Virus record (IMG/VR): IMGVR_UViG_3300025120_014099
Location: 1 to 23,202 of that record
Source of the DNA: a virus
DNA length: 23,202 bases
Reading direction: 5' to 3' (one strand)
Part shown: positions 1,831 through 20,350 of the stretch, in pieces
How positions within the stretch are numbered: the stretch's first letter is position 1
Layout: every line of letters begins with the position of its first letter
The notes under the pieces: model-generated
What the model saw: only the letters and a program-made list of their open reading frames with translations
What the model was told of the DNA's origin: nothing
Database searches by the model: none
Position numbers and translations under genes: made by a program

Positions 1831-1989
1831 TTAAAATAAATCTAAAAAATTATCTTTTATATCTTTTGACTTAAATCTACGCATTTTTTCATCCTTCTCC
1901 AAGCTTTTTGTTGCAATTTTTTCAAGATGTTTACGTTTTTGAGTATCATAATCATCTACTAGCTTTTGATGTTTTTTCTTACGTTTCAT
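1831..1989 (-). CDS. Small basic coiled protein (52 aa)
   Basis: ATG at 1989 and TAA at 1833-1831 define a 52-aa product that is almost entirely Lys, Asp, Glu and Arg. It starts MKRKKKHQKLVDDYDTQKRK and ends in KDNFLDLF. It is predicted to be a single charged helix. Its ATG overlaps the TGA of the HNH-like gene (ATGA), suggesting translational coupling. No homologue is recognised, so support is limited to gene packing and in-frame length. Confidence 0.45.
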   Translation of the reverse strand: MKRKKKHQKLVDDYDTQKRKHLEKIATKSLEKDEKMRRFKSKDIKDNFLDLF

Positions 1990-2612
1990 ATTCTAGATAC
2001 TAAATCTAACTCATTATCTTCTTCAAGGCCTAATTCTTTTAAACGTTGTAAATGGTAATTATCAATTTCCCAATCAACTTTACTTTCATTTACTGGTTTA
2101 TGTTCTTCTAAACCCTGGACCTGTTTGTCACTAAATATATTCCCGACTTGGAGAAAATAACAGTTATAACAAAGGAGTTCTACATTATCTAATTTATAAT
2201 TTTTTTTACTACCATCTTTAAAATGCATAAGTAAAGGAACTCTATAATCTAATACTCTACGTTCACTAAACTTACAATTACTGCAACATTCTTCGAGATA
2301 CCCATCTGCAACTAATTTATCTTTAATTTTATTAGCATCAAAGTGAGAAGAATCAACTCTCCCTTCAATAATATCTAATATTGCAGGGGCCTTTTTCCCG
2401 CCGTTTAAAAATTTAGGAATACCCTTACCTGATTGGTTTTTATGTTGTTCAAATATATTCTCGTAACCTTCTTCAGTGGCATCATAGTTTTTAGCCCATT
2501 TCTTGTAGTGAATATAAGAAACACCCAAATATCTGGCAGCTGCTCTGTTACTTTTAGTTTTATTAACGGCAGCTTTAATTTGTAGCTTACTAAGTGGTTT
2601 AGCTTTAGGCAT
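1986..2612 (-). CDS. Helix-turn-helix / HNH-like endonuclease (208 aa)
   Basis: Residues about 17-42 (NKTKSNRAAARYLGVSYIHY and following KKWA) form a helix-turn-helix of the kind that precedes nuclease domains in phage HNH proteins. Residues 110-151 carry a zinc-type HNH core: Cys110-x2-Cys113, then MHFKDGSKKN (His130), DNVELLCYNC with Asn143, and Cys148-x2-Cys151. The usual first HNH histidine is not clear, and the domain ends soon after the second Cys pair with YFLQ where many HNH proteins have a histidine. It may be degenerate or a DNA-binding derivative. The gene overlaps the upstream stop by 1 nt. Freestanding HNH genes of this type in T4-like phages are often homing endonucleases; that is inference here. 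Confidence 0.7.
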   Translation of the reverse strand: MPKAKPLSKLQIKAAVNKTKSNRAAARYLGVSYIHYKKWAKNYDATEEGYENIFEQHKNQSGKGIPKFLNGGKKAPAILDIIEGRVDSSHFDANKIKDKLVADGYLEECCSNCKFSERRVLDYRVPLLMHFKDGSKKNYKLDNVELLCYNCYFLQVGNIFSDKQVQGLEEHKPVNESKVDWEIDNYHLQRLKELGLEEDNELDLVSRI

Positions 2613-3019
2613 TATAATTTCATCATTTCTTCAGCCCAATACATTAAAAAGTCCCAAAGATCATCTATTGTATTAAAAATATGTTCTTTACCCGAAGAGT
2701 CTATAAAAGGATAAATTTCACCCTCGTCACTTTTTCTACCATAGATATAAAAAATAATAGCCGAACCTGCTATTTCATCAAAGCTAAAGTGGATAAATTT
2801 TTCAATTAATTTGAAAAAAGGTTCATCATAAGTAGAAAAATCAGCCCCATATTCTATATCTATATCATTTTGCCGTTTCCAAACATTTTCATATAATTCT
2901 ATTATTTCAATAAATTCATTTTTTAGTTTATCTTCTTCAGTGGTGCCATCAAAACGCATAGTAATGTTAGATCCTAAAATCTGTTCAATTACTCCTTTTA
3001 TTTCCTTTCTTTGATTCAT
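2612..3019 (-). CDS. Hypothetical acidic protein (135 aa)
   Basis: No family is recognised. The protein is acidic, with an N-terminal helix, a charged middle (residues 27-60) and a C-terminal part that mixes aromatic strands (SAIIFYIYGR) with a final helix (DDLWDFLMYWAEEMMKL). There is no signal peptide or transmembrane helix. It overlaps the upstream gene by 35 nt and the HNH-like gene by 1 nt, so it is probably translated with both. A role cannot be inferred. Confidence 0.6.
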   Translation of the reverse strand: MNQRKEIKGVIEQILGSNITMRFDGTTEEDKLKNEFIEIIELYENVWKRQNDIDIEYGADFSTYDEPFFKLIEKFIHFSFDEIAGSAIIFYIYGRKSDEGEIYPFIDSSGKEHIFNTIDDLWDFLMYWAEEMMKL

Positions 3020-3329
3020 TGACTTCCTCTTTTAATTTAACTAATTTAGCACATTTAGAATAATTTTCTTGTTGCTCAAAAAATTTAATAGCAGTATCTA
3101 ACACTTTAGAAAAATTACGTTCTTCTAATACTACAGAACACTCTAAATTAGGAACATAACATACTCTAGCAGATTTACGTTTTTTAGTTAAGGCATGTTC
3201 GATTGTGATTATAGCTTCATCTAGTAATAACTTATGGAAATCATTACTTTTTATTAAAGCATCCAACTCTTCAGTTTCATCATATTGAATTTCAATAGAT
3301 AAAACATCTCTTTCTTTTTTCTTTACCAT
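2985..3329 (-). CDS. Hypothetical protein (114 aa), paralogue of the 103-aa protein
   Basis: No named family. It starts with a basic VKKKERD stretch, then alternates helix and strand, with CYVPNLECSVVLEERNF in the middle and an ENYSKCAKLVKLKEEV helix near the end. This last part aligns with the protein at 1518-1829 (see there). It is the first gene after the glycan cassette: a 46-nt gap separates them, and that gap holds a small inverted repeat. It may therefore start a new transcription unit, though no clear -33/-7 promoter was found. Confidence 0.6.
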   Translation of the reverse strand: MVKKKERDVLSIEIQYDETEELDALIKSNDFHKLLLDEAIITIEHALTKKRKSARVCYVPNLECSVVLEERNFSKVLDTAIKFFEQQENYSKCAKLVKLKEEVNESKKGNKRSN

Positions 3330-3375: not shown

Positions 3376-4443
3376 TTATAAACTAATTAATTCATTTTGG
3401 CATTCATTAAGTGAGTTAATTACTATAGTTAAGTTACCTAGTTCAAATTTACCTATTTCTCCACTATCCTTTACAATATCATTTAATTTTTGAATTATTT
3501 GGAAATCCTGTTGGTTAAACGTATTTCCATCAACATTAACTATGATATCACCTCCATCGTTAGCCCAGGGTTCTAATGTTTCCTCTAATTGAGGATTAGA
3601 ATTAATAATATTAATTGTTTTCTTATAAACGGGAGAAATAATAGGTTTCATGAATTGATCGTGCTGGACTACAGTACCCCATTTTCTAATAAATTTTTTC
3701 ATATTAGTAGTTGTAGTTTGCAACCATTCATTTGAGTTTACTCCAGCGGCTCCACCAGCATGTTTATTAAATCTACTACCCCTACTAGTAAAATGGTAAA
3801 CTAAACCTTCCCATGTTTGTAGTACTTTATAACCATTTAAAACAAAACGATTAAATAAATCACTATCTTCTTTAGATTGGGGAGCAAATAATTCATCATG
3901 CCCCCCAATAGCTAAAAAGTCTTTTTTATACATACACCAAGGAGCAAATATACCCTCAGTAACTAACGTATCGTGTTTAGGTTTATATTCATTTAATACC
4001 CAGCTGTTAAATTTATCTATATTAAAATCCTCAACTTCAATCCCAAAATCAACTAGCATTTTTTCGGGCCCATCTGGGTGTAAAGGTGGTTCAACTCTAG
4101 TTGCACTAACAACAATACCTGGTTTTAAATGGTTTAATATATGTTTATCTAAATCGGGTGCAGCAACCATATCAGCATGAAATGCCATTATAATATCCGT
4201 TCGTGCCATTTCTATTCCTTTATCAAACATACCCACTATACCAATACGTTCGGGACCTGGGTTGTGATGTACAATTAAGTCATCATCCCCTAAATTATCT
4301 ATCCATTCTTGAGTACCATCTGTACTAGCATCATTTAATACAAGTATTTCGTGTTTAGTTGAAAGGTTACGGATAGATTTGTATGCTAATTCTAGAAATT
4401 CTAAGTTGTTTCTACTTGGTATTACAAATGTTATTTTTTCCAT
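3376..4443 (-). CDS. GT2-family glycosyltransferase (355 aa)
   Basis: GT-A fold glycosyltransferase, expected to move a sugar from a nucleotide-sugar donor. The N-terminal MEKITFVIPSRNN opening and LNDASTDGT (about residues 37-44) are the GT2 nucleotide-binding signature, and FHADM (88-92) sits at the metal-binding DxD position. A GGHDELF segment and a KEDSDLFNRF segment further on match the acceptor side and catalytic Asp of the family. About 75 C-terminal residues go beyond the GT domain. I take the ATG at 4443 as start because it gives the standard opening and begins 2 nt after the upstream stop; the longer frame (ATG 4482) would overlap the methyltransferase gene by 37 nt. It is the last gene of the cassette. 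Confidence 0.88.
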   Translation of the reverse strand: MEKITFVIPSRNNLEFLELAYKSIRNLSTKHEILVLNDASTDGTQEWIDNLGDDDLIVHHNPGPERIGIVGMFDKGIEMARTDIIMAFHADMVAAPDLDKHILNHLKPGIVVSATRVEPPLHPDGPEKMLVDFGIEVEDFNIDKFNSWVLNEYKPKHDTLVTEGIFAPWCMYKKDFLAIGGHDELFAPQSKEDSDLFNRFVLNGYKVLQTWEGLVYHFTSRGSRFNKHAGGAAGVNSNEWLQTTTTNMKKFIRKWGTVVQHDQFMKPIISPVYKKTINIINSNPQLEETLEPWANDGGDIIVNVDGNTFNQQDFQIIQKLNDIVKDSGEIGKFELGNLTIVINSLNECQNELISL

Positions 4444-4445
4444 AA

Positions 4446-5081
4446 TTATTTTAAATTTATAACTGCGAAAAATACCCAACAACTATTTAAATCAGTAGTT
4501 ATATCAGTACCCCATTGACCCCCTGGGAGTTGGACTTCATTTAATCCTATAGCTGTTATATCACACCCATCAAAGTTTCTATATAATACTTCTGTAAATT
4601 CCTGTGGGTTGTATTCATATAAATGGGTTCCTCCATTATAAACCCAAGTAGGGGTTTTCCTTCTTGGAGTTGTAATGATGATTGTTTCTTTAGTTACGGA
4701 TTTTAAACTTTGTAAATAATCATCTATTTTTTCTTTTGGTAAATGTTCAAATGTTTCTATAGAAGTACAAACATCAAATTCATCTTTTTTAAATCGTTCT
4801 TTAAGATTGAAAATATCACATACTTCGTGCCTACAATTAGGTGATTGATATATTTCATTAGCACTTTTTACTCCTTCTTCATCAATATCAATACCTACAA
4901 CACTTTTAGCTCCTAGTGATAATAAAATTCCTGCCCCATAACCTTTTCCGGTTGCGGCATCTAGTACTTTTTTATCTTTAGTCCAATGGTTAGCAAAAAT
5001 GTATCTATCTATCATAGTAGAAGTAGCGGGTTTTACTAATCTATCTATATCTTTTAATGGGTGGTTATCTGTTACTTTCAT
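4446..5081 (-). CDS. Class I SAM-dependent methyltransferase (211 aa)
   Basis: Motif I is DAATGKGYG (residues 41-49), motif II is GIDID (63-67), and FDVCTSIETFEHL is the strand-4 motif with the usual EHL after it. This is the Methyltransf_11/23 layout of small-molecule or sugar methyltransferases. It is followed by IIITTPR, also typical. The ATG overlaps the stop of the epimerase gene by 4 nt (ATGA), so translation is probably coupled. In this cassette the likely substrate is a sugar or a glycan terminus, which is inference from position. Confidence 0.87.
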   Translation of the reverse strand: MKVTDNHPLKDIDRLVKPATSTMIDRYIFANHWTKDKKVLDAATGKGYGAGILLSLGAKSVVGIDIDEEGVKSANEIYQSPNCRHEVCDIFNLKERFKKDEFDVCTSIETFEHLPKEKIDDYLQSLKSVTKETIIITTPRRKTPTWVYNGGTHLYEYNPQEFTEVLYRNFDGCDITAIGLNEVQLPGGQWGTDITTDLNSCWVFFAVINLK

Positions 5082-5926
5082 TTTTTTATATTGTTTATAT
5101 AATCTACTAAATTAATTTTTGGTTCCCAACCTAAAAGAGATTGAGCATGGGAATTTGTATTTAGGGTATCTTGTGCTTCGCCCGGTTTAGCGGGTTTGTA
5201 AGTAGGGTTAATGTTTAACATTTTAGCTACTTCGTTTACTGAGTGGTTTTTACCTCTTCCTAGTTCAAATATAAACTCATAAGCCTGTTGTTTTTGAATT
5301 CTAATTAGGGCATCTACTATATCATCAACGTGGGTAAAATCTCTTCGTTGTTTACCATCACCATATATTTCACAATCGATTCCTTTTTTTATATTATTTA
5401 ACCACCTACCAATTAATGTAGTATAACCACCTTCGGTTAATTGATAAGGACCATAAACATTATAAAAACGAACAATAGATGCTTTTAAGTTATAGTGTTC
5501 CCAGTATAATTTAATTATTTCTTCACCTATATCTTTACTAAAAGTGTATGGATTTTTGAATTTACCACTATGATGGGATGAAGAACCCGCATACACTAAG
5601 GGTACTTCATTTTTAGCACAATAGTCAACTATTTCTAAAGTTCCGTTAGCATTAGCAGTAAAATAATCTTTAGGATTCTCGAATGAAGGTTGAATCCTAG
5701 CTATAGCAGCTAAATGGAATATAATATCTGGGTGTTGGTTGTATACCCATTTATAGCTATAGACTTTTCTTATATCAAATTCTTCATACCTAACTCCCTC
5801 TATATGGTTTTCTATTTTACCAGTTGAATAATTATCTATTGAGGTTACTTCATGTCCTAATTCTATTAGTTTTTTACATAAATTAGTACCTATAAAACCT
5901 GCTCCTCCTGTTACTATTATTTTCAT
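5078..5926 (-). CDS. NAD-dependent nucleotide-sugar epimerase/dehydratase (SDR, 282 aa)
   Basis: Extended short-chain dehydrogenase of the GalE type. GGAGFIG (7-13) binds NAD, DIIFHLAA is the second nucleotide motif, SSS at 115-117 and Tyr127-x3-Lys131 are catalytic, and RFYNVYGP and the late RRDFTHVDDI are family signatures. These enzymes oxidise and re-reduce C4 of NDP-sugars (4-epimerases) or make 4-keto-6-deoxy sugars (4,6-dehydratases). The length and the absence of the Asp-Glu pair typical of dehydratases at SSS favour an epimerase, but the substrate cannot be read from sequence. It supplies donors to the surrounding glycosyltransferases. Confidence 0.9.
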   Translation of the reverse strand: MKIIVTGGAGFIGTNLCKKLIELGHEVTSIDNYSTGKIENHIEGVRYEEFDIRKVYSYKWVYNQHPDIIFHLAAIARIQPSFENPKDYFTANANGTLEIVDYCAKNEVPLVYAGSSSHHSGKFKNPYTFSKDIGEEIIKLYWEHYNLKASIVRFYNVYGPYQLTEGGYTTLIGRWLNNIKKGIDCEIYGDGKQRRDFTHVDDIVDALIRIQKQQAYEFIFELGRGKNHSVNEVAKMLNINPTYKPAKPGEAQDTLNTNSHAQSLLGWEPKINLVDYINNIKK

Positions 5927-5931
5927 ATTTG

Positions 5932-6855
5932 TTATATTTTAACATTAAAATATTTCATTGCATATTCAGCTCGATACTGTGGGTAATAGTCATAATCATC
6001 CCCCATTCGCACCCAACAACGACCATCTTTACCTAATAACACCCTTTTGTTGTCAATTTTCTCTATCCTGGGGTCTACATTTTTCCACTTGCGGTGGTGG
6101 TATTCAACTCCAGTCATGTTGTTTCCTCGATCCATACTTCCCTCTCCTTTATTACGACTTCCAGCATCTAACTCCTGGCCTGTATTGGTTTTTAGTCCAA
6201 TAATTTTATGTTGGGAAAATTTTGAGTTACAGAAGTATGTAAGATTAGGTTTTTGGAAATATTCTTTTTTTGCATCTACATGAGGTGAAATTGCTTCAAT
6301 ATAATTAGGATATCTTTGAAATTGTGGAAAATTTTTATTTTCATACCACGATCCATAAGGGGAATACCCTTCAACTTCAACACACCTTAAAAACCAATCA
6401 TCATCTTCCATGCTAGGATAGTAACGATAGCCTTCATCCCACCACCCTATCCTAACAATGGTTTTTTTATGAAATGCAACAGCATTCCAAGCGTTAAGAT
6501 GTACTTGCTCTAAATGAGGATTTTTTTCTAATATGTCATTCAATACCTCAAGCCAATCACTATCAAATAGCATATCATCACACGTAAGTAAAACCCAATC
6601 TGTTTGGGATTTAATAATTCCTTGATTCCAAGCTTTTGTTAACCCTACATTTTCTTTACTATATATAAAGTTTGATTTAGGATGGGATTTTTCAGCAATT
6701 TTAATTTTTTCTAATTCATCCCCAGTTGTGTTATTATCCCATACAATGACAGGAATTAAAGGATCAATAGTATCTAAGCATTTTTTAAGTCTATCTCCTC
6801 TATAGTAACTTACAATAACTATAGTTATGTCGGATTTATTAAAGGAAGCTACCAT
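5932..6855 (-). CDS. GT2-type glycosyltransferase (307 aa)
   Basis: GT-A fold: TIVIVSYYRGDRLKKCL opening, then NVGLTKAWNQGI (about 69-80), a hallmark of GT2 enzymes, and a CDDM acidic metal site at 92-95. Further on, YPSMEDDDWFLR is in place of the usual catalytic ED/W motif. The final 100 residues are unusual, rich in Asn, Tyr and Arg, and hold a GQELDAGSRNKGEGSMDRG stretch not seen in ordinary GT2 enzymes. The start overlaps the end of the preceding gene by 17 nt. The family is clear; the donor and acceptor are not. Confidence 0.85.
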   Translation of the reverse strand: MVASFNKSDITIVIVSYYRGDRLKKCLDTIDPLIPVIVWDNNTTGDELEKIKIAEKSHPKSNFIYSKENVGLTKAWNQGIIKSQTDWVLLTCDDMLFDSDWLEVLNDILEKNPHLEQVHLNAWNAVAFHKKTIVRIGWWDEGYRYYPSMEDDDWFLRCVEVEGYSPYGSWYENKNFPQFQRYPNYIEAISPHVDAKKEYFQKPNLTYFCNSKFSQHKIIGLKTNTGQELDAGSRNKGEGSMDRGNNMTGVEYHHRKWKNVDPRIEKIDNKRVLLGKDGRCWVRMGDDYDYYPQYRAEYAMKYFNVKI

Positions 6856-7585
6856 CTTGTAATCTTTTAAAATAAGTCCCCGGGCTGTATGATTTTAATT
6901 TATATCCCATTTTATAAAAATAATTTGTAAAATCAATTTCTACTTGATCCCCTACATATCCCCCTTTAGTAGGATTATCTTGAAACAATTCAGGATTAAT
7001 ATTGGGAGTATTAAAATACTTAGGGACACATAATCTAAGGTTTTGAAGTGTTTTAGTTGTTGTTAACCCCACACCCCCATGAGCATGAGGAGGATGATTA
7101 CCTGTTCTTTTTATGTAATCATTCTCATCAAAAGTAAATCTATGGATTTCATGTGCCTCAAAATTTAAAGCTGCAACAAATCCTATTAAGGAATCATTTT
7201 CAATAAAATCGATCATTTCTTTTATATAATTCTCCCTTAAAGGAAGTATATCGTCTTCAGTAAAATACCAATAATCATATTCATTTTCAAATTTATGGAA
7301 AGCATATTTATATGATCCAAAACTTAAATCTTTATTTAAAATAGGTCTATGTAATATTTTAATTACTCCATTTTTTAATTGAGTTCCTTCAATAGATGAC
7401 AAATAATCATAAACTTGAGGGGATTCAATATCATGGTTAACTATAAGGAAATCGCAGTTACATCCTACATCAAAATCCTGGTGGAGTTCTATTTGTTGGT
7501 TTAAAACTTCTGCTACTTGTGTAGCATTTGAGGGATAATTACGACGTTCACCAAAATAAGTGGCTATTACTTGAATTGCTTTCAT
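6839..7585 (-). CDS. GT-A fold glycosyltransferase-like protein (248 aa)
   Basis: A divergent GT-A protein. It opens MKAIQVIATYFGERR, with a long N-terminal part, and carries YWYFTEDDILPL (EDD at 110-112), the acidic metal-binding motif flanked by aromatic residues as in GT2 and related families. A later GGVGLTTTKTLQNL helix and GDQVEIDF probably line the acceptor site. The classical DGS motif is missing, so donor specificity may differ from the other GT2 genes here. Its end overlaps the next gene by 17 nt. Confidence 0.72.
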   Translation of the reverse strand: MKAIQVIATYFGERRNYPSNATQVAEVLNQQIELHQDFDVGCNCDFLIVNHDIESPQVYDYLSSIEGTQLKNGVIKILHRPILNKDLSFGSYKYAFHKFENEYDYWYFTEDDILPLRENYIKEMIDFIENDSLIGFVAALNFEAHEIHRFTFDENDYIKRTGNHPPHAHGGVGLTTTKTLQNLRLCVPKYFNTPNINPELFQDNPTKGGYVGDQVEIDFTNYFYKMGYKLKSYSPGTYFKRLQDGSFL

Positions 7586-7588
7586 AAG

Positions 7589-8134
7589 TTATAAATTATA
7601 TCCCGATAACCCTGGCCAGTTGGGGTTTAATATATTATAGTTTATTTTAGATTGGAGGGAGGTTATAGGAGTAGCATTATATTTATGCATCCATTCTTCA
7701 TTATCTCTTTCTTGTGTTCCCCCTTCAAATAAAACTAAAGAATTAGGGAAATGGGTATAAATTTCAGATATAGTATCTCCAGTATTTGATATATCTAAAT
7801 GAAGTAAATCGAATTTTTCATTTTCATATAACCAATTATTAAAATCTTTTTTAATTAAAGAAACATATTGATCTAAGTTATAAAATTTTAAATTATTTAG
7901 TACTACATCTTTAACAGCTCTTTTATATGGGTAGTCTTCAAATAAATCATAAGCTATAACTTCCCCAAATCCATTATCTTTAACTCCTTGAGCTAAGCAT
8001 ATTGTTGAATATCCATATAAAATGCCAAAGTCAATTATTTTTTTAGGTTTATACTTTATAACAGTGTCATATAGGGTTTTACCTATATTATTTTTGCCAT
8101 AAGACGATACTATGTGGTGAGGATTTTGGTACAC
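7589..8134 (-). CDS. SAM-dependent methyltransferase (181 aa), GTG start
   Basis: DFGILYGYST (35-44) is the SAM-binding glycine motif. EVIAYDLFED (acidic end of strand 2) and FDLLHLDIS (strand 4) follow in order, as in Methyltransf_24-type proteins, and LVLFEGG closes the core. The start is GTG at 8134, 1 nt after the upstream stop; no in-frame ATG occurs nearby and the next ones would remove the SAM site. A small size and lack of extra domains suggest a small-molecule substrate; in this cassette a sugar O- or N-methylation is likely. Confidence 0.8.
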   Translation of the reverse strand: MYQNPHHIVSSYGKNNIGKTLYDTVIKYKPKKIIDFGILYGYSTICLAQGVKDNGFGEVIAYDLFEDYPYKRAVKDVVLNNLKFYNLDQYVSLIKKDFNNWLYENEKFDLLHLDISNTGDTISEIYTHFPNSLVLFEGGTQERDNEEWMHKYNATPITSLQSKINYNILNPNWPGLSGYNL

Positions 8135-8135
8135 G

Positions 8136-8723
8136 TTATATATGATATAATTTGTTAATAGCGGGGATAAAATTTTTATAAGTATCCAAATCTTTATCTT
8201 CTATATTTCCTCTTTTAAATAACCTTGGGTTATGGACTTGACATTCTTCAATGGAGGGAAGACATTCTAAAAGTTTTAAAGAACCTAAAACAAAAGAAGG
8301 ACAGATTTGAATTAATCTTTGATATAAATCAATCATTGTATCTGTTTTAAACACAGGATAAGTTGTTTTGCTTATAATGGGCCCCCTATCAAATTTTTCT
8401 GTTATTTTATGAAAACTCATTCCTTGTTCTAAAGCCTCTTCTTTTAAAGTATGGTATAATATGTCAGTTCCTCCCCATTCAGGGAGGAGACCAGTGTGCA
8501 CATTAAAAGCATTTTCAATATTTAAAAGCTTTTTATCATATTGTATAGATAACTTTATATCATGTTCCACACCTTCATTAACTATTGGGAGATCCATTTT
8601 TCCCTTTATCAAAGGATTTTGGGAGGGTATATAACCTACTAGATCATAGTGGGGTTTTAGAAAATCACAAGTTATCTTAGTAAGATAAGTTGACCCATAA
8701 ATAAGAATTTTATTTAGATTCAT
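8136..8723 (-). CDS. Formyltransferase-fold protein, likely sugar N-formyltransferase (195 aa)
   Basis: The catalytic set of the formyl-THF transferase family is present (residues numbered from the upstream ATG, 8729): Asn76 and His78 in FNVHTGLLPEWGG, and Asp114 in FDRGPI, with His107 upstream of it. Known members that act on UDP- or dTDP-linked amino sugars pass a formyl group from N10-formyl-THF to the amine. The gene follows the DegT aminotransferase directly, which fits: one enzyme makes the amine, the other caps it. I favour ATG 8723, whose ATGA overlaps the aminotransferase stop, over ATG 8729. The protein is shorter than full-length MTF and lacks its C-terminal tRNA domain, which argues against Met-tRNA formylation. 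Confidence 0.82.
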   Translation of the reverse strand: MNLNKILIYGSTYLTKITCDFLKPHYDLVGYIPSQNPLIKGKMDLPIVNEGVEHDIKLSIQYDKKLLNIENAFNVHTGLLPEWGGTDILYHTLKEEALEQGMSFHKITEKFDRGPIISKTTYPVFKTDTMIDLYQRLIQICPSFVLGSLKLLECLPSIEECQVHNPRLFKRGNIEDKDLDTYKNFIPAINKLYHI

Positions 8724-9910
8724 TTCCAATTTTTAATACAATCCACAATATATTCCCTTTCTTCATTAGTTACCCACCATCCAACAGGGATTGATACTAC
8801 GTTGCTAATTGTTTTTTCTAAGTTAGGTAATTCAGTTTTAAATTGGGACATGCAACTATGTTTATCATTTCTTTCATGAACTTGTGATACTGTAATATTA
8901 CATTTTTCCATATGTTTATAAAATGAAGGTCTATCATTTACCTTCAATGTGTAAATCCAAAATGCGGATTCAAATCCTTCTTCTCTTTTTAATAATGTAA
9001 CTCCTTCTACATTTTGGAGATGTTCATCGTAATAAGCTGCGTTTTCTTTATGTTTAGATACTATCGTATTTAAATGTTTAAAATTTTCCATACCAACAGC
9101 CGCACACACATCATTCATGTGGAATTTAAATCCCCATTCTTCTATATCTGCTTCACATCTAAAGTCAGTTCTACCCTTTGGATTTCTATCGATACCATAC
9201 CATCTAAGCAATTTTGCTCTTTCATATAATTCTTCATGAGGGCAGTAAAGTAAACCACCATCAACCGAAGTAATATGTTTAATTGCTTGTAGGGAATTCA
9301 TTACAAAGTTCCCATGATTGCCTAAATACTCTCCTTTATACTTTGTACCAATTGAATGTGCTCCATCTTCAATTAATACTGGGGCCCAGTTATGCTTTAT
9401 TCTGAACTTGTTTTGGATTTCTTTAATCTTATCTAAATCTAGTGGGTATCCACCCCAATGGACTCCCATAATAGCTTTTGTTTTTGGAGTCATTTTCCTT
9501 TCTAGATCTTCCAAATCCATATTTAAAGTTGTTGGATCAATATCTACCCATTTAATTTTTAAATTATTTGCTAGAATAGGCCAATTTGATGCTGTACACG
9601 TTAATGGGGATGCTAATACTTCATCTCCATCCTCTATACCTGGCCAATTATGATTAGTAAAAACTAAGTGTTCATATTCATTTCTATTCCAGTTAAGTTT
9701 AGGTTTTTTTAATAAATGGAGAGCCAAATGTAAAGCGGATGTTCCGGCATTAAGAGTTACTACTTTTTTATTTCCAAAATATTCACCTAATTGTTTTTCA
9801 AACTCATCTACTTTGGATCCCTGTCCAATGTATCCACTATCTAGTACTTTTCCTACTTCTTCTTTTGCTGTAGGAGCCATAAATACTTTAAAAAGAGGTA
9901 TTTGTTCCAT
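8720..9910 (-). CDS. DegT/DnrJ/EryC1/StrS-type sugar aminotransferase (396 aa)
   Basis: A PLP-dependent aminotransferase that turns a ketosugar nucleotide into an amino sugar nucleotide, usually with glutamate as donor. Evidence: IPLFKV opening, LNAGTSALHLAL (53-64), VDIDPTTLNMDL, LIEDGAHSIG (179-188) with the PLP-contacting Asp and His, and SLQAIKHITSVDGG, where Lys211 is the Schiff-base lysine. There is an extra segment of about 25 residues (68-95) compared with typical members, placed between the first PLP motif and the GDEVLASPLTC region. Length and domain order are otherwise standard. It overlaps the GT2 gene by 1 nt and the formyltransferase gene by 4 nt. Confidence 0.93.
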   Translation of the reverse strand: MEQIPLFKVFMAPTAKEEVGKVLDSGYIGQGSKVDEFEKQLGEYFGNKKVVTLNAGTSALHLALHLLKKPKLNWNRNEYEHLVFTNHNWPGIEDGDEVLASPLTCTASNWPILANNLKIKWVDIDPTTLNMDLEDLERKMTPKTKAIMGVHWGGYPLDLDKIKEIQNKFRIKHNWAPVLIEDGAHSIGTKYKGEYLGNHGNFVMNSLQAIKHITSVDGGLLYCPHEELYERAKLLRWYGIDRNPKGRTDFRCEADIEEWGFKFHMNDVCAAVGMENFKHLNTIVSKHKENAAYYDEHLQNVEGVTLLKREEGFESAFWIYTLKVNDRPSFYKHMEKCNITVSQVHERNDKHSCMSQFKTELPNLEKTISNVVSIPVGWWVTNEEREYIVDCIKNWK

Positions 9911-10524
9911 TATAATGTATTATAAAATTCGTTTTGGTTTTCTTGTCGTTTTATATCTTTTGGGTGGTAGATACAAAATTCTTTATTTGCGGGTAACTGA
10001 GATTCGGTTTTATGGCCTGTAAGTATTTCATGGACTTTATTTTTCCATTTAATACGTTTTACGTTTTTAAGGATTCTACATTGGTAATCCGGAAAATTTA
10101 CTTTCCCATCAGGGTCAACTCTCCATCCCCATTTCTTAATATGTTCATCTGTTAGCCCTCTAACTGTATTAATTCGAGGAACCCAAAATACATCAGTTCC
10201 CGGATTATTTTTTATTAACCACTCAATAGTATTCATTAAATATTCTTCAGGGTACTCATCAGCATCAATTTGAAAAATATAATCTCCAGAACAATTATCT
10301 TTAAGATTATTTTTAAATGATGAGAAATTTTTATTTAAAGCAAATTCTATAACTTTTACATCAGGGTGTTGATTTAGTACTTTATACACTTCAGAGGTAG
10401 TATTTCCCTGATCACATTGTACCACTATTTCATCTTGTTCCCTTTTATGTTTAGTTAAGTACTCAAGTAAATATTCTATTTCTTTATACTCATTACATAC
10501 GGGGACTGCATAACTAATTTTCAT
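9910..10524 (-). CDS. GT2-family glycosyltransferase (204 aa)
   Basis: A compact GT2 enzyme. It opens ISYAVPVCNE, has a DEIVVQCDQGN nucleotide site, and the DxD motif is Asp87-Ala88-Asp89-Glu90 in FQIDADEYPEEYL, the pattern seen in WaaE/KdtX-like lipopolysaccharide glucosyltransferases. The CRILKNVKRIKWKNKVHE stretch resembles the end of that family's catalytic domain. At 204 aa it is short, but the catalytic core is complete. Start and end share one base with neighbours. Confidence 0.88.
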   Translation of the reverse strand: MKISYAVPVCNEYKEIEYLLEYLTKHKREQDEIVVQCDQGNTTSEVYKVLNQHPDVKVIEFALNKNFSSFKNNLKDNCSGDYIFQIDADEYPEEYLMNTIEWLIKNNPGTDVFWVPRINTVRGLTDEHIKKWGWRVDPDGKVNFPDYQCRILKNVKRIKWKNKVHEILTGHKTESQLPANKEFCIYHPKDIKRQENQNEFYNTL

Positions 10525-10973
10525 TATTTTTCAAGTTCGAATACCCCAATATAATCAAGAGCTTCTATAAAATCACGTTCTTTAAAGTAAGACGCCTTTT
10601 TCATGTCCATTTTATAAGTAGCATCTTCCGGAAATTTTTCTTTTTCTTCTTCTGTAAGTTCTTTAGCGGGACATGCCACCCAATTCCAATCATTAACAGA
10701 ATTACCTTGAATAAAAATCATTCCCTTATCAGCTATATTAATTGTAGATGGGATCCAAGTAAAACCATCTGATTCTACTTTAGATAAATCTTTATAAATT
10801 TCTGGGAGTACTTCTAGTTGTTCATTTAAAAATTCACTATTGGGTTCCATTAAAGTATTAGTAGTAAAACCACATCCATAACACATATGAACTTTATAAT
10901 CAGCCCCTAAATCATTTTCATAACAAGCGTCACTTCCGCAACGGGGACATGTTGTTAATTTATCCTTTAACAT
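10524..10973 (-). CDS. Zinc-ribbon hypothetical protein (149 aa)
   Basis: The N-terminus has Cys9-x2-Cys12, Cys17, and Cys31-x2-Cys34 (CPRCGSDAC and CYGCG), a treble-clef or zinc-ribbon layout. The rest is an acidic domain with LEVLPEIYKDL, WVACPAKELTEEEKEKF and a C-terminal helix, which resembles no enzyme I know. It overlaps the GT4 gene by 14 nt and the GT2 gene by 1 nt, so it is encoded within the glycan cassette. Its role there could be regulatory or structural; nothing in the sequence points to sugar chemistry. Confidence 0.72.
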   Translation of the reverse strand: MLKDKLTTCPRCGSDACYENDLGADYKVHMCYGCGFTTNTLMEPNSEFLNEQLEVLPEIYKDLSKVESDGFTWIPSTINIADKGMIFIQGNSVNDWNWVACPAKELTEEEKEKFPEDATYKMDMKKASYFKERDFIEALDYIGVFELEK

Positions 10974-12258
10974 CTTCTAATTTTTTAAGTTTAGGTAAGC
11001 CTAATGTCGGAAGTTCTAATTTAACTTCTTTGGGGAAATCCGGGAGGTATTGATCTAAATAAGTTTTTAATTGTTTAACCATTACATCAAAGTTAAATTC
11101 TAAAGAGTTTTTTCTTGCTTGTCTAATTGACTTTTCTTTATAGGTTTTATAATTAGCAAACATATCTCTTAAAGCATTAACTGTAGCTTGTTGGTCAACA
11201 TCAAACCATTCAAATTCTTTCATTAACACATTTTTTACTACAGAACTATCATCTAACTTATTTAACTTACCTGGGAGGAGTGGGGTAAATTTGTTATCTA
11301 GAAAATCCTTATGACCACTCCAATCTGTGGTTAAAATAGGTTTTTTAGTTAAACTAAATTCCAATAAAGGTCTACCAAATCCTTCTCCTTTAGTTAGACT
11401 TACCATAGCTTTAACTTTATTATGAGTGTAAACTTCATTCATTTCTTCATTAGTAAGATCACCATGAAGAATGTAAATATTAGGTAATGTTTGAGCATCT
11501 TTTACAGTACCACGTATGGAATCTATTTTTTCTAGGAGGTCATTTCGATCCATATATGAAGTACCTACTCGAGTAGTTTTTAGTATTAGGGCAGGTGCTT
11601 TTTTAACATTTTTGAATGATTCTAAGAATAATCTTACTAACAGTCCTACATTTTTCCTATCATGTCCTACATGCCCTTGCATCCAGTGCCCTACAAATAA
11701 GTAGGCAAAGTCTTCTTTAATTTCACTTAAATCAAATGTAGATTTTTTAGGCTTGTAAGTATTAAGATCTACTCCTTCAATTAATATCTCTATTGGTTTT
11801 TGAAGTTTATATTCTCCCACTGTTTGATTGGTATTTTTATCCTTTTGTTCAAACTTGATAGTTTTAAACACATCAGCACTGTGAGTAGAAGATGTTAACA
11901 CTAAATCCATCCTATTACATCCTTCAACCCATGATGGGTGACATCCTGTAGTTTCAATTCCAGCTGTAAGACCTATATTATATTTTCCTATTGGTTGGAA
12001 TTCATTAGGTACAGTAATTTGACACCATATTTCTGGCTTTTTTGGGAGTTGATTTCCTACTGGGAGTAAATGGGGTTTTAGGAAATGCCATTCAGGGTGA
12101 TCTGCTATAAAACCCCATGCACATACCCCCCATCTTTGGGGTAAGACTTTAACATCATATTCATCTAACTCAATAAGAGCTTTTACAAAATCTCTAGCTC
12201 GAGCTCCATAACCGCTGTACGTGTCAATCGGACAGCTTACTATAAACATTGGTTTCAT
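10960..12258 (-). CDS. GT4-type glycosyltransferase (432 aa)
   Basis: GT-B fold enzyme. The N-terminal domain starts FIVSCPIDTYSGYGARARDF, with the Gly-rich loop after the first strand. The C-terminal domain has FVGHWMQGH for the donor-binding region, ILHGDLTNEEMNEVY, and the EX7E motif GEGFGRPLLEFS (Glu292 to Glu300) followed by KPILTT. This is the retaining GT4 pattern. It overlaps the upstream GT4 gene by 1 nt. Residues about 138-150 form a Lys/Asn-rich insertion. Together with the next gene upstream it suggests two sequential sugar additions by related enzymes. Confidence 0.9.
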   Translation of the reverse strand: MKPMFIVSCPIDTYSGYGARARDFVKALIELDEYDVKVLPQRWGVCAWGFIADHPEWHFLKPHLLPVGNQLPKKPEIWCQITVPNEFQPIGKYNIGLTAGIETTGCHPSWVEGCNRMDLVLTSSTHSADVFKTIKFEQKDKNTNQTVGEYKLQKPIEILIEGVDLNTYKPKKSTFDLSEIKEDFAYLFVGHWMQGHVGHDRKNVGLLVRLFLESFKNVKKAPALILKTTRVGTSYMDRNDLLEKIDSIRGTVKDAQTLPNIYILHGDLTNEEMNEVYTHNKVKAMVSLTKGEGFGRPLLEFSLTKKPILTTDWSGHKDFLDNKFTPLLPGKLNKLDDSSVVKNVLMKEFEWFDVDQQATVNALRDMFANYKTYKEKSIRQARKNSLEFNFDVMVKQLKTYLDQYLPDFPKEVKLELPTLGLPKLKKLEDVKG

Positions 12259-13691
12259 TAATATACTAAATTATGTTGTACAACTTTTTTTTCGATTGGA
12301 TCAGCTTTGATCACTTCATATCTGGGTCTGGGAGTCCAGGTTTTTAATAGATTATCTATATTTTCTATTACTCTTTCTCCTTGGCGTTCAGCAGTAAATC
12401 CTGCTTCATTTCCCGTCGCCCATTCTCTACCTAATAATCCTATAGCTTTTCTTCTTTCAGGAGTTAAATTATAAACTTCTAAGAGTTTATCAGCAGCATC
12501 ACTAGGGTCACACCTATCATCAAAAATATATGGTGTTGGGGGAGAACCAACAATAGAAATATTAGTTGGAAAAACTGGGAAGGCCCAAGGTCCACATTCT
12601 TTATAAGTACCCCTATGGTTTGAAGGAATATTTTCGTCTGGGGTAAACCATAATCCTTTTTCGTCTTGAAATCTCATTTGGTCTTGCATCCCACCTGTGG
12701 TATTAGCAATTATAGGGTTACCAGCTAAAAGAGCTTCTGTTAAGCTTAAACCCCACCCTTCATTAGAGGTTAATTGAATTTGAACATCCGTGCTATTATA
12801 TAATAAATTCATATCATGAGTTGAAAGTTTAGGTTCATGTATGATAATATTATATCTTTCATCGTCACCACAAAGCATATCTATTACTGCTCTAAGGTCT
12901 GTTCCATTAGGATCTACAGCATGGGTATGTAAAAGAAAAGCACACTGTTTAGCTTCTTCTAAAGGTAATTTATCTATAAATTGTTTATAAGCCCAAATAG
13001 TATCAGGTATTTGTTTACGTCTAATATTTCTGGAGTTAAAAAATGCTACAAAATCATATTCTTTATCCCCATATAAATTCTTTTTAAATTTTATTAATTC
13101 AGGATCTTTTTTATCTAAAGGCTTATAGATTTTATGGTTTAATCCATGAGGAACATATTTAATAATTTTATTTTTAGCTTTATCCCCTAATACTATTTTA
13201 TTAATATTTACTGTTTGTTTCGAAATACCCATTAATAAATCACAAGATTCATAATAAGCTTCATTATATCTGGGTGCCGGGTAGTCGTCCCAAATGTTCA
13301 GATAAATAATAGGAATTTTTGTTCTAACCTCCGCTTCCATTTTAAATAACCAAGCCCAATATCTAGGATCAGTTATAATAAAAATAGCATCTGGGTTTTC
13401 TATGCTGATAACTTCCCTAAGCTGTTCAGGGGTACCATATCCACTAGAGGGATAAAGAGTTACACTGGCATCACTAATGCCTATTTCATCGTTTGTGCTT
13501 TCACTTAAATCTAATCGTTTCCCTGCTTCAGGGTGATCTATAGCTGCTCCTAAATTGCTGTAGTTAAAATGGTGGGCTGTATGGAGTACTATTTCTTTTG
13601 CAACTGTCCCAATTCCAGAATGGGTTCTAATATCGTCGCACATCAACAAAATTTTCTTTCGTTGATCTTTTGGAACATAACCTTTTTTCAT
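12258..13691 (-). CDS. GT4-type glycosyltransferase (477 aa)
   Basis: GT-B fold enzyme, first gene of the cassette. It has LLMCDDIRTHSGIGTVAKEI near the N-terminus, YVPHGLNHKIYKPL at about 179-192, and FNSRNIRRKQIPDTI for the donor domain. LLHTHAVDP follows, then LTSNEGWGLSLTEALLAGNP with Glu311 and Glu319 of the EX7E motif and ANTTGGMQDQM. This is a complete retaining GT4 domain. The ATG lies 7 nt after the stop of the ribbon-helix-helix gene; no promoter fits in that gap, so both genes are probably cotranscribed. Only its family is certain. Confidence 0.92.
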   Translation of the reverse strand: MKKGYVPKDQRKKILLMCDDIRTHSGIGTVAKEIVLHTAHHFNYSNLGAAIDHPEAGKRLDLSESTNDEIGISDASVTLYPSSGYGTPEQLREVISIENPDAIFIITDPRYWAWLFKMEAEVRTKIPIIYLNIWDDYPAPRYNEAYYESCDLLMGISKQTVNINKIVLGDKAKNKIIKYVPHGLNHKIYKPLDKKDPELIKFKKNLYGDKEYDFVAFFNSRNIRRKQIPDTIWAYKQFIDKLPLEEAKQCAFLLHTHAVDPNGTDLRAVIDMLCGDDERYNIIIHEPKLSTHDMNLLYNSTDVQIQLTSNEGWGLSLTEALLAGNPIIANTTGGMQDQMRFQDEKGLWFTPDENIPSNHRGTYKECGPWAFPVFPTNISIVGSPPTPYIFDDRCDPSDAADKLLEVYNLTPERRKAIGLLGREWATGNEAGFTAERQGERVIENIDNLLKTWTPRPRYEVIKADPIEKKVVQHNLVY

Positions 13692-13698
13692 ACTTATT

Positions 13699-13884
13699 TT
13701 ATAAATTTAAATCTGTGTGGTTGTGAATTTGTCGTTTGAATTCTTCATCTGTAAGGTACAAATAAACACATCTATCAGCAAGTTTTTGGAATGAAAACTT
13801 TTGCCTAACACATGCTATTTTAAACTCTTCAAATAAATCACTTTTAATTTTTACGCTTGTTAATGTTAAATCTTTTTTACTCAT
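13699..13884 (-). CDS. Ribbon-helix-helix-like small protein (61 aa)
   Basis: LTLTSVKIKSDLFEEFKIAC fits a beta strand followed by an alpha helix, and FSFQKLADRCVYLYLTDEEF by the second helix, as in MetJ/Arc/CopG proteins. Such small proteins bind DNA as dimers through the strand. From memory, similar MSKKDLTLTSVK proteins occur in T4-like phages; this was not checked. It sits directly upstream of the 10-kb glycan cassette and downstream of a 51-nt intergenic gap with a possible promoter, so it is a candidate regulator of the cassette; that is inference from position. Confidence 0.65.
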   Translation of the reverse strand: MSKKDLTLTSVKIKSDLFEEFKIACVRQKFSFQKLADRCVYLYLTDEEFKRQIHNHTDLNL

Positions 13885-13935: not shown

Positions 13936-14862
13936 TTAATGTTTATTACATAATTCTTTATTATCATTAAAGGAACACCACTTACATAAAGGTGATACTA
14001 CTTTAGGATGTTCTTTATCTTGATGTTTTCCTTTAGGAGTAAAACAGTCACTAATAAATTCCTCTAATATAGTGTCTGCTTTTCTAAGCTTATTACGTCC
14101 CGCAGACGGTTTATGGAGTTGGACTCTATGGATAGGGTAATCACTATTTTCCCAAATTTTTCTACGTACAATAAAAAATTCTACTTCTATATTTTCAAGT
14201 GGAATTCCATACTGCTCATTAAAAAACTTTTTATAAAGAACTAACTGCATTTGCTTATTTTCGTCCTTTTTGGCTTTAGCACCCCATCCCCTAGTAGACG
14301 TTTTTATATCGTATACATAAAATTTATTTGTGGGTTCATGGTATAATACCATATCAATAAAACCCTTGTATACTAAGTTGTTACCAACGTTCATTACAAT
14401 GGGTAACTCAATACCTGCAAGGTGCCATCCACGGTTTCCAAAATATTGTTTACGTCTTTTTTTAAGAAAATCTAATATTGCTACTCCATCTTCGAAAAAC
14501 TCACGTAATTCTTCTGGGGATGAGTAGTGGGTGTCTTTATTTTTAGTATAACCTTCTTTATATAGGTTAATAAATTTTTCTTGGAACATTCCTTCCAAAT
14601 CCATATTATCTGCTTTTACTCCAGATTGCTCATACAATACCGTAAGCCAGTCTTGGATTACTTCATGCATTGATGTTCCAAAGGTAAAATGGATGGATTG
14701 TTCATTTTTATAATGTCCATCTTTATACTGAAGTGCCCACTTGTGTGGGCAACTTCTATACATAGACATTTGAGAATAAGAAATTGTTTTTTGGTAAGCG
14801 TAATTTACCTCAGGTAATTCCTTATTTTGTATCTCTTTGAGTATTTGGGGCTTCTTTGCCAT
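13936..14862 (-). CDS. PD-(D/E)XK nuclease, Cas4/RecB-like, with probable Fe-S cysteines (308 aa)
   Basis: Catalytic motifs of RecB-type nucleases are in order: His66 in GTSMHEVIQ, Glu152 in GIELP, Asp170 in KGFIDMV, Asp185-x-Lys187 in YDIKTS, and QMQLVLYKKF (204-213). Four cysteines at 38 (RSCPHKW), 293, 296 and 305 match the one-plus-three arrangement that holds a 4Fe-4S cluster in Cas4 and AddB nucleases. Such enzymes resect or process DNA ends. No CRISPR array or Cas1/Cas2 is present, so a role in phage recombination or replication is more likely than spacer acquisition. The start overlaps the MazG-like gene by 41 nt. Confidence 0.85.
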   Translation of the reverse strand: MAKKPQILKEIQNKELPEVNYAYQKTISYSQMSMYRSCPHKWALQYKDGHYKNEQSIHFTFGTSMHEVIQDWLTVLYEQSGVKADNMDLEGMFQEKFINLYKEGYTKNKDTHYSSPEELREFFEDGVAILDFLKKRRKQYFGNRGWHLAGIELPIVMNVGNNLVYKGFIDMVLYHEPTNKFYVYDIKTSTRGWGAKAKKDENKQMQLVLYKKFFNEQYGIPLENIEVEFFIVRRKIWENSDYPIHRVQLHKPSAGRNKLRKADTILEEFISDCFTPKGKHQDKEHPKVVSPLCKWCSFNDNKELCNKH

Positions 14863-17035: not shown

Positions 17036-18944
<1,909 letters not shown>

Positions 18945-18945
<1 letters not shown>

Positions 18946-19196
18946 TAGATAATATTTTTTAATTCGTTTTTAATAGATTTTAATTCTTCAATATATTCTT
19001 TGATGCTATCATAAGACCGTTGACGAACTTTATTTTCAGCGATTTTTTCAATTGCCTTAGCTAAATCACTGAAGTGGCCAATAGATGAATCATAAGGAAT
19101 ACCACTATCAGGTATAATTTTTTTAAACGCTGAATAATTCAGGTCGTCCACTTGAATAAAATAAGGTTCAAGCAAAGGGTCTTTAATAAATCTCAT
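18945..19196 (-). CDS. Hypothetical protein (83 aa), first gene of the chaperonin operon
   Basis: No family is recognised. It has an N-terminal strand region (DPLLEPYFIQVDDLNYSAFK) and a C-terminal helix ending KEYIEELKSIKNELKNII. The middle IGHFSDLAKAIEKIAENKV fits a small phage family pattern but gives no function. Its promoter lies about 25 nt upstream, and it runs into groES by a 1-nt overlap, so it belongs to the groES-groEL transcription unit. A cofactor or unrelated passenger are both possible. Confidence 0.55.
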
Positions 19197-19218
19197 AACT
19201 TTTTAAATTTTAATTACG

Positions 19219-19251
19219 CGTGAATATACGAATGAATCTTCAGGGCACCAA
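19219..19251 (-). promoter_or_regulatory. Bacteroidota-type promoter of the 83aa-groES-groEL unit
   Basis: Minus strand TTCGTATATTCACG (19232-19219) with TTG at 19251-19249, spacing 20 nt, which fits the -33/-7 pattern of Bacteroidota. The -33 TTG lies inside the word AGGTTGGTGCCCT, whose inverse copy lies in the hsp20 leader. The predicted start of transcription is near 19215, about 20 nt before the ATG at 19196. Confidence 0.7.
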
Positions 19252-19254
19252 CCT
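19242..19254. repeat. 13-nt inverted repeat, left copy (downstream of hsp20)
   Basis: AGGGCACCAACCT reads on the plus strand; the exact reverse complement lies at 19737-19749. It overlaps the -33 region of the groES/groEL promoter. Read on the minus strand it is AGGTTGGTGCCCT. Confidence 0.75.
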
Positions 19255-19258
19255 TTAA

Positions 19259-19690
19259 TTACTTAATTGTTAAAGTTTTTGGTTTGTTTTCATCTGCGTA
19301 CGGGATGGTTACTACAAGGAGACCATCACTCATTTCTGCTTTTGCTTTTGCAAGAGCAAATCTACGAGCTACTTTCCAGCCAATATTAAAGCTAGATTTT
19401 TTAACGCTTGAGTGATAGTAGCGACGCTCACTCTCATTTTTAGGTAGAGTCTTTTTGTCATATTTAACACAAAGATAGTCTCCTTTAAGCTCAATTTCAA
19501 CTAATTCTTTAGGAATACCTGTACAAGCTACCTCAAAGGTAAGCCCATTTTCATCTTCAAAAATATCTACAGGTTGGTTTACATTGCGGTTATCGGGTTG
19601 AGCAAATTCCGCTTTTTCATTAAAAAAGTCCTTTACCAGGACGTCAAGTGGCGAGAATACTCGCGGATCGAATAGATTTACGTGTGTCAT
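19259..19690 (-). CDS. Small heat-shock protein Hsp20 (143 aa)
   Basis: An alpha-crystallin domain protein. The N-terminal arm includes VFSPLDVLVKDFF, the core runs from about NQPVDIFEDENGLTFEV through ELKGDYLCVKYDKK to LLVVTIP, and the C-terminus ends KPKTLTIK, a near-typical I/V-x-I tail. Such proteins form large oligomers that hold unfolded proteins for refolding. It stands alone between two promoters, with its own leader of about 65 nt. Hsp20 genes are well known in T4-like cyanophages, but pairing with a full GroES-GroEL operon is less usual. Confidence 0.93.
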   Translation of the reverse strand: MTHVNLFDPRVFSPLDVLVKDFFNEKAEFAQPDNRNVNQPVDIFEDENGLTFEVACTGIPKELVEIELKGDYLCVKYDKKTLPKNESERRYYHSSVKKSSFNIGWKVARRFALAKAKAEMSDGLLVVTIPYADENKPKTLTIK

Positions 19691-19792: not shown

Positions 19793-20350
19793 TTATTTCA
19801 CAATTCCTGCTCTGAGCTGCCATTGGCGTTTTGTCCATTCTTCCAACTGTTGTTCTTCAAGTTTATTTTGGAAATCAGACATTTTAGCTTTTACATCATC
19901 AGTACTAATGCCCTTTCGATCAGCAATATCTTTTTGTAAATCTTTATCGTATTTAATAGAAATTGCTCTGCGTTTTGCAGGGGTGAAATTACTAGGATCT
20001 GATGTAAACTCATCTATAAGATTATTAAATTCTTCGTCTGAGAGCTTATTAAATCTTCCTTGGTCTCTAGCTAATTTCATTTTAGCAAGAGCAAGTCTCA
20101 CATAAAGTTCAGGTTGAAGTTTTAAAATCCCCATAGTATTAAGCTCATTATATTGGGTCTTACCTAGAGCATATTTTTCCCTATACTCATCCATATCTTC
20201 ATTCCACTTTTTGGATCCACCTTCTAGATAATCTTCTAATTGTTGGGCATAGTTATAGCCTCCCCTTAGGTTACTATTAATAATATCTGTTATACCGTCA
20301 GTAGCGGCCCCAATTTCATTATAAACCGAGTTGTAATTTATTCTTGCCAT
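19793..20350 (-). CDS. Hypothetical helical protein (185 aa)
   Basis: No family is recognised. It is hydrophilic and almost fully helical: a Tyr/Asn-rich start (INYNSVYNEIGAA), a Tyr/Glu-rich middle (EYREKYALGKTQYNEL), and a charged C-terminal helix (KMSDFQNKLEEQQLEEW). There is no membrane segment, cysteine or clear coiled coil. The ATG follows the sliding-clamp stop by 11 nt, so it is in the same transcription unit as the clamp. Its role is unknown. Confidence 0.6.
   Translation of the reverse strand: MARINYNSVYNEIGAATDGITDIINSNLRGGYNYAQQLEDYLEGGSKKWNEDMDEYREKYALGKTQYNELNTMGILKLQPELYVRLALAKMKLARDQGRFNKLSDEEFNNLIDEFTSDPSNFTPAKRRAISIKYDKDLQKDIADRKGISTDDVKAKMSDFQNKLEEQQLEEWTKRQWQLRAGIVK

Follow-up and report, generated by a model that had tools for sequence, protein, structure and literature searches.

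A phage glycan locus of constant borders and exchangeable middle that carries a predicted amino-sugar formylation module

Introduction

Clusters of so-called lipopolysaccharide (LPS) genes in marine and freshwater phages have no settled target. T4-like cyanophages such as P-SSM2 carry LPS-type clusters, for which changes to the host surface are the proposed role (PMC2984593, PMC9602691). In the Megavirinae, an aminotransferase, an N-acetyltransferase, a methyltransferase and glycosyltransferases (GTs) make clade-specific virion fibril glycans, as for the viosamine of Mimivirus (PMC10117803). Core glycosyltransferases have been noted in large Bacteroidota phages, where their target is likewise unsettled, and few phages are known to have glycosylated virions, from Mycobacterium work cited in the same source (PMC12619734). 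Here we describe a twelve-gene glycan cassette in IMG/VR virus record IMGVR_UViG_3300025120_014099, the whole 23,202-base stretch of which is referred to as the window.

The cyanophage clusters resemble this cassette in that marine phages carry GTs, epimerases and sugar genes, but their hosts are different and no fixed-border exchange with a DegT-acyltransferase slot has been described for them. The Megavirinae clusters share with it a virus-encoded aminotransferase, N-acyltransferase, methyltransferase and GTs; they differ in belonging to eukaryotic viruses, in using acetyl rather than formyl groups, and in that the virion location is proven there and would only be probable here. In the open-access literature searched, which leaves out most subscription papers, no account was found of fixed-border exchange, of an acyltransferase slot after DegT or of any sugar N-formyltransferase from a phage. 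With its fixed borders, wholesale replacement of the middle and lack of export genes, and with an isolated relative that grows on Flavobacterium sp. LMO8, the locus offers a testable case for the function of such clusters.

Results and discussion

A cassette shared with a Flavobacterium phage

Twelve open reading frames (ORFs) run on the minus strand from 13691 down to 3376 in a single uninterrupted series, with neighbours overlapping or lying within about 5 bases of each other (Table 1). Profile searches assign five glycosyltransferases, two methyltransferases, a short-chain dehydrogenase/reductase (SDR) epimerase, a DegT aminotransferase, a formyltransferase and a zinc-ribbon protein. The twelve ORFs are confirmed as real co-directional genes with overlaps of a few bases, as had been read from the letters alone in an initial annotation. 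That annotation counted six glycosyltransferases, of which five are recovered by profile; the sixth, GTx (6839-7585), has no match in Pfam or PHROG. A confident AlphaFold2 model of GTx built with 13 relatives (predicted local distance difference test, pLDDT, 85.8) adopts a fold common to GT-A enzymes and sugar nucleotidyltransferases, and on the strength of this model GTx is a probable glycosyltransferase.

The closest named relative is Flavobacterium phage vB_FspM_immuto_2-6A (Immutovirus, MW353175.1; hereafter immuto), a complete genome of 160 kb with T4-type portal gp20 and capsid gp23. Its glycan locus (49172-59988) has the same borders in the same order as the window cassette, with identities of 59% for GT4a, 54% for GT4b, 42% for the zinc-ribbon protein, 48% for GT2a, 56% for DegT, 59% for the epimerase, 60% for GT2c and 33% for one methyltransferase. 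Since the gene order recurs in this named phage and in dozens of IMG/VR contigs, it is not a product of chance. T4-type replication genes share the strand of the cassette, and the replication and chaperone genes of the window include the clamp loader, the sliding clamp, the C-terminal part of DNA polymerase, GroEL/GroES and Hsp20. Because immuto infects Flavobacterium, the host of the window virus is probably a Flavobacterium-like member of the Bacteroidota.

Border genes are conserved and the middle is replaced

To what extent does such a cassette behave as a set? A collection of 159 contig stretches was fetched starting from DegT and GT4a; some of these contigs are near-duplicates, so that the counts below are partly non-independent. 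The left border follows the order PD-(D/E)XK nuclease, 61-aa (amino acid) protein, GT4a, GT4b, zinc ribbon and GT2a, and the right border opens with GT2c or another GT, after which come either small proteins or a DksA-like protein, together with an HNH endonuclease. Between them, the middle varies from 1 to 12 genes in the 34 loci that are bounded by GT2a and GT2c (window included). Even when GT4a proteins are 60-70% identical, paired loci share on average 7% of their middle gene families, and in 53 of 83 such pairs they share none.

The comparison of the window with contig stretch L094 illustrates this pattern. On the left flank, the polymerase (85%), clamp loader (94%), GroEL (90%) and nuclease (85%) are closely similar, and the left border remains recognizable through GT4a (79%), GT4b (75%), the zinc ribbon (78%) and GT2a (60%). 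The middle genes from DegT to the epimerase are without any counterpart and GT2c is only 25% identical, whereas the right side resumes in order at 56%, 52%, 84% (HNH) and 69%. Exceptions within the flanks are Hsp20 (37%) and the gene at 19793, which has no match. The same exchange pattern is seen when L096 and L089 are compared with the window. Sister viruses thus retain the border genes and differ in the whole of the middle, a pattern suggestive of a trade in sugar coats within this virus lineage. The DegT-formyltransferase pair singled out in the initial annotation does recur, but it is one interchangeable part of a hypervariable locus, in which it is the border genes that are conserved. A search for direct repeats that might mark the block edges gave only AT-rich, chance-like pairs, and promoter-like sites were no more frequent than in shuffled sequence.

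A DegT aminotransferase paired with a compact formyltransferase

The DegT protein has a full-length PF01041 domain, the region of the pyridoxal phosphate (PLP) lysine and relatives among nucleoside diphosphate (NDP)-sugar aminotransferases, as expected of a sugar aminotransferase. Among solved structures it lies nearest to CalS13 and a pair of related chains (4zwv/4xau, AtmS13), which align over the full length at 1e-113 to 3e-103, with ArnB, perosamine synthase and QdtB ranking far behind. The SLQAIKH segment around the PLP lysine aligns to SFQALKH of the CalS13-type structures. CalS13 aminates a deoxythymidine diphosphate (dTDP)-4-keto sugar, and CalS13-type enzymes belong to actinobacterial antibiotic-sugar pathways; the window protein differs from them by about 20 extra residues near positions 70-92 and by its phage cassette context. 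The closest assignment is that of a predicted CalS13-type nucleotide-sugar aminotransferase.

The formyltransferase starts within the DegT stop codon through an ATGA overlap (8723-8720), and its homologues favour the ATG at 8723 over the TTG at 8729. The catalytic Asn-His-Asp residues (N76, H78 and D114) are invariant in all eight aligned members. One alternative is that this enzyme is of purine or Met-tRNA type, merely sits beside DegT and makes no N-formyl sugar. Its best single-sequence match is indeed the Met-tRNA formyltransferase Fmt (3e-7), its nearest PHROG is labelled phosphoribosylglycinamide formyltransferase and its length is close to that of PurN. However, the protein is 197 aa in all, PF00551 is its sole domain match and the C-terminal tRNA-binding domain of Fmt is absent. 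In addition, a family profile puts sugar enzymes first: QdtF, the TDP-Qui3N enzyme, is matched at 1e-11 over positions 45-182, followed by ArnA (4e-11) and GDP-perosamine formyltransferase, with Fmt at 1e-10 and PurN at 1e-7 over the core (75-156) only. The overlapping start and the recurrent pairing with DegT also argue against this alternative, which we regard as highly improbable. The initial annotation read the protein as a sugar N-formyltransferase, a reading that clustering with the Met-tRNA or purine enzymes would refute; the profile ranking gives no sign of such clustering, with Fmt close behind the sugar enzymes and the purine enzymes well below.

A fold search with the predicted formyltransferase model (pLDDT 58, too weak for analysis of the active site) returned WlaRD first. 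QdtF, WlaRD, ArnA and GDP-perosamine formyltransferase, the best profile and fold matches, share with the window enzyme the catalytic Asn-His-Asp and a DegT partner. The window enzyme, at about 20% identity or less, is much shorter than these sugar N-formyltransferases, with a compact N-terminal part and without their C-terminal dimerisation or sugar-binding extension.

Searching IMG/VR with the family alignment identified eight contigs with a close relative of the formyltransferase, all of which carry DegT. The formyltransferase lies directly 3' of DegT in seven of the eight; in L168 the two are one gene apart and in reversed order. Because L166/L167 and L011/L164 are near-duplicates, the adjacency amounts to approximately five of six independent cases. 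This recurrence bears out the adjacent aminotransferase-formyltransferase pair that had been pointed out in the initial annotation. A single-sequence pattern search of IMG/VR gave no matches, the family alignment found no relative in bacteria or archaea (84,980 species, one genome apiece) in a pattern-based search that is no proof of absence, and the matches in a phage collection were weak and partial. The enzyme belongs to a small family in phages, likely one of sugar N-formyltransferases, for which the closest library annotation names a purine enzyme, and, as predicted from sequence, the DegT-formyltransferase module should make a formyl-capped amino sugar.

In L166 and L167 the DegT-formyltransferase-GTx trio lies off the usual site, where it separates the two parts of a DNA polymerase gene, and so the module moves as a unit. 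The family B DNA polymerase in question (L166 1287-6928, and L167) is split into two ORFs of 592 and 311 aa with a break near profile position 565. In the window (21114-22040), a cysteine synthase-like gene precedes the C-terminal polymerase half. A second formyltransferase-domain protein is found in immuto at 35039-35566 (L002 1040-1567), outside the glycan cassette and within a group of 7-deazaguanine DNA-modification genes (DpdA, QueF, QueE, QueD and FolE).

The gene that follows DegT is exchangeable

For 103 DegT genes with a next gene on the same strand, that neighbour falls in a GNAT acetyltransferase cluster 26 times, is this formyltransferase 4 times, falls in a hexapeptide transferase cluster twice and is a methyltransferase approximately 19 times, so that an acyl- or methyltransferase fills the slot in about half of the cases. 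The economical reading is that the slot serves N-acylation or methylation of the amino sugar. The immuto cassette, in contrast to that of the window, is without a formyltransferase and has a PglD-like hexapeptide acyltransferase, a half-length DegT-like protein and other GTs. The half-length DegT-like protein, of about 213 aa, is conserved in 16 loci (L002 22736-23380 and 15 others), at a size more uniform than simple decay would leave.

Export genes and the acceptor of the glycan

A fundamental question is on what acceptor such a glycan would be assembled. By a simple hydropathy count, 824 of 842 proteins in 78 cassettes have no membrane segment and 17 have one or two; five are predicted in a single 159-aa protein at the edge of L007, and none of the GT or sugar genes encodes a polytopic protein. 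Searches for a Wzx flippase (PF01943), an initiating sugar-phosphate transferase (PF02397) and GtrA (PF04138), whose controls matched, found none in 16 related records, mostly fragments, that include the complete immuto genome. An O-antigen (Wzx/Wzy-type) locus with its own export was rejected, since the cassettes and the 16 records lack the membrane genes, an initiating transferase and a flippase, that it would need; the GtrA of a phage serotype-conversion gtr cluster is likewise missing from the 16 records. The absence of export genes points to a cytoplasmic acceptor, either protein or DNA, rather than to an exported lipid-linked glycan.

One hypothesis is that the cassette remodels the surface polysaccharide of the infected host, with the phage providing sugars and transferases and the host's lipid carrier, flippase and ligase displaying a product that blocks other phages or grazers. 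Remodelling of this kind has already been proposed for the LPS-type clusters of T4-like cyanophages (PMC2984593, PMC9602691), and both the gene set (DegT, N-acyltransferase, epimerase, GT2/GT4 and methyltransferases) and the exchange between fixed borders resemble bacterial O-antigen loci. However, the 16 related records, complete immuto among them, hold no initiating transferase, flippase or GtrA, the cassette enzymes include no membrane protein, and a lytic T4-like phage would have little time to replace a surface. We consider this hypothesis unlikely, and the host-like surface glycan put forward in the initial annotation is weakened by the same result, as no such gene was found in any cassette or related genome searched.

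An alternative hypothesis is that a complex glycan is placed on a modified base of the phage DNA, which would thereby escape host nucleases. Cytoplasmic GTs without export genes would fit DNA as well as protein, a DUF1599 ('nucleotide modification associated') gene stands near the left border in many loci, and virus GTs that place diverse glycans on DNA have been reported (Pyle et al. 2024, as cited in PMC12619734). On the other hand, no cassette holds a protein of PF00303, to which base hydroxymethylases belong, and 9 of the 16 records, three large close relatives among them, have none at all; the records are fragments, and the profile cannot separate a base hydroxymethylase from thymidylate synthase (ThyA). 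Immuto moreover has a complete and separate 7-deazaguanine pathway, and methylated, acylated and swapped outer sugars would seem to exceed what escape from nucleases requires. A PF01702 search for the 7-deazaguanine transglycosylase failed to recover even the DpdA annotated in immuto and was set aside as uninformative. We consider DNA an improbable acceptor.

A virion protein is favoured instead, because the middle is large and exchanged in blocks, as would be expected of an exposed structure, and because comparable amino-sugar clusters of giant viruses make virion fibril glycans. We place about even confidence in a phage-encoded glycan locus that keeps its borders and exchanges its middle, yields an N-formylated amino sugar and builds the glycan in the cytoplasm on a phage structural protein.

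Several observations weigh against this account. The cassette sits among replication genes rather than structural genes, and most of the relatives searched are fragments beyond which export genes could lie, immuto being complete. For the formyltransferase, Fmt scores close behind the sugar enzymes in the family profile and the confidence of the predicted model is low. The hints as to the sugar also disagree, QdtF and WlaRD indicating a 3-amino and CalS13 a 4-amino sugar.

Supply of the sugar and a model for assembly

The initial annotation observed that the early steps of synthesis, a nucleotidyltransferase and a dehydratase, are not visible, and they are indeed absent from the window and from immuto. 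In the latter, no nucleotidyltransferase or dehydratase was found, and only the epimerase matches the dehydratase profile (103 bits). The epimerase was considered as the missing 4,6-dehydratase and rejected, as it carries SSSHHSG in place of STDEVYG and its catalytic Asp-Glu motif, as does the immuto epimerase; the best solved relative of the window protein is UDP-glucose 4-epimerase (9e-37). A search for RmlA/RmlB-like genes elsewhere, suggested with the initial annotation, failed in immuto but met with partial success in other relatives. Dehydratase-like proteins with STDEVYG and YxxxK occur in two formyltransferase-bearing relatives, G001 (33,209-34,105) and G006 (34,724-35,746), both scoring under the curated TIGR01181 cut-off, and a HAD-nucleotidyltransferase fusion of about 455 aa is present in four of the related records. 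Some phages would therefore rely on the host, and others would bring part of the supply. The HAD phosphatase-nucleotidyltransferase fusion also recurs near DegT in the wider collection (L027 2394-3761 and 18 other loci).

The substrates, order of steps and acceptor that we infer are as follows. In T4-like phages, probably infecting Bacteroidota, a 4-keto nucleotide sugar from the host or from phage genes beyond the contig would be aminated by DegT, with the amine at position 3 or 4, and the adjacent formyltransferase would N-formylate the amino sugar from formyl-tetrahydrofolate. The epimerase, the methyltransferases and the middle GTs would furnish further residues and trim them. Within the glycan, a constant inner part would come from the conserved GT4a, GT4b and GT2a and a variable outer part from the swapped middle, the whole being assembled in the cytoplasm, most likely directly on a phage structural protein. 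The purpose would be to change the exposed virion surface.

A broader proposition, which we advance tentatively and at somewhat below even confidence, is that T4-like Bacteroidota phages carry a cytoplasmic, carrier-free 'glycotype' locus with constant border GTs, a block-swapped middle and exchangeable N-acyl (formyl or acetyl) and methylation parts; the chemistry of the virion surface would then evolve, like bacterial O-antigens, through the exchange of cassettes. Provided that the virion carries the glycan, such exchange would allow rapid changes of phage surface chemistry, in parallel with O-antigen switching and with the clade-specific glycans of giant viruses.

Genes of the locus and its surroundings

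Table 1 Genes of the window cassette and its borders, listed from the left border to the right (E-values follow the family names).
Feature	Position	Strand	Place and evidence
PD-(D/E)XK nuclease	13936..14862	-	Outermost left-border gene; PF12705 8e-18; in 112 loci
61-aa conserved protein	13699..13884	-	Left border, directly before GT4a; family in 113 loci
GT4a glycosyltransferase	12258..13691	-	Left border; PF00534 9e-8 (above cut-off); 59% to immuto
GT4b glycosyltransferase	10960..12258	-	Left border; PHROG 2170 2e-18, Pfam below cut-off; 54% to immuto
Zinc-ribbon protein	10524..10973	-	Left border; CxxC pairs, sub-threshold PF14354; family in 92 loci
GT2a glycosyltransferase	9910..10524	-	Last left-border gene; PF00535 2e-10 (above cut-off); family in 104 loci
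DegT aminotransferase	8720..9910	-	Middle, variable block; PF01041 8e-71
Compact formyltransferase	8136..8723 (ORF to 8729)	-	Middle; PF00551 (Formyl_trans_N) 9e-12 (above cut-off)
Methyltransf_24 methyltransferase	7589..8134	-	Middle; PF13578 9e-10
GTx, probable GT-A glycosyltransferase	6839..7585	-	Middle; predicted fold, invariant E110 D111 D112
GT2b glycosyltransferase	5932..6855	-	Middle; PF00535 4e-12 (above cut-off)
SDR nucleotide-sugar epimerase	5078..5926	-	Middle; PF01370 4e-49; SSSHHSG in place of dehydratase motif
S-adenosylmethionine (SAM) methyltransferase	4446..5081	-	Middle; PF13649 9e-14
GT2c, last glycosyltransferase	3376..4482	-	PF00535 5e-16 (above cut-off); 60% to immuto from residue 14; 25% to L094
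Right-border protein	2985..3329	-	56% to L094, 58% to L089
Right-border protein	2612..3019	-	52% to L094; family in 13 loci
HNH endonuclease	1986..2612	-	Right border; PHROG 14736 9e-11; 84% to L094, 46% to immuto

Among the genes listed in Table 1, the SAM methyltransferase has no relative among the fetched loci, and alignment of GT2c to its homologues favours an ATG near 4443 as the probable start over the TTG at 4482. The best solved relative of GT4a is chlorovirus B736L (5.8e-9), a weak lead, and the acceptor of B736L is itself unsettled (PMC9614988). The 61-aa protein before GT4a has no Pfam match and might regulate the cassette as a small protein.

Genes recurring in other loci include a phytanoyl-CoA dioxygenase-like oxygenase in mid-cassette (L070 13462-14343 and 8 others), suggesting oxidative modification of the glycan, and the DUF1599 protein, which lies near the nuclease end of the cassette in 40 loci (for example, L156 1842-2252). 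In the window, GroEL, GroES and an Hsp20-type chaperone occupy 17036-19690, and GroEL matches its immuto counterpart at 61% identity.

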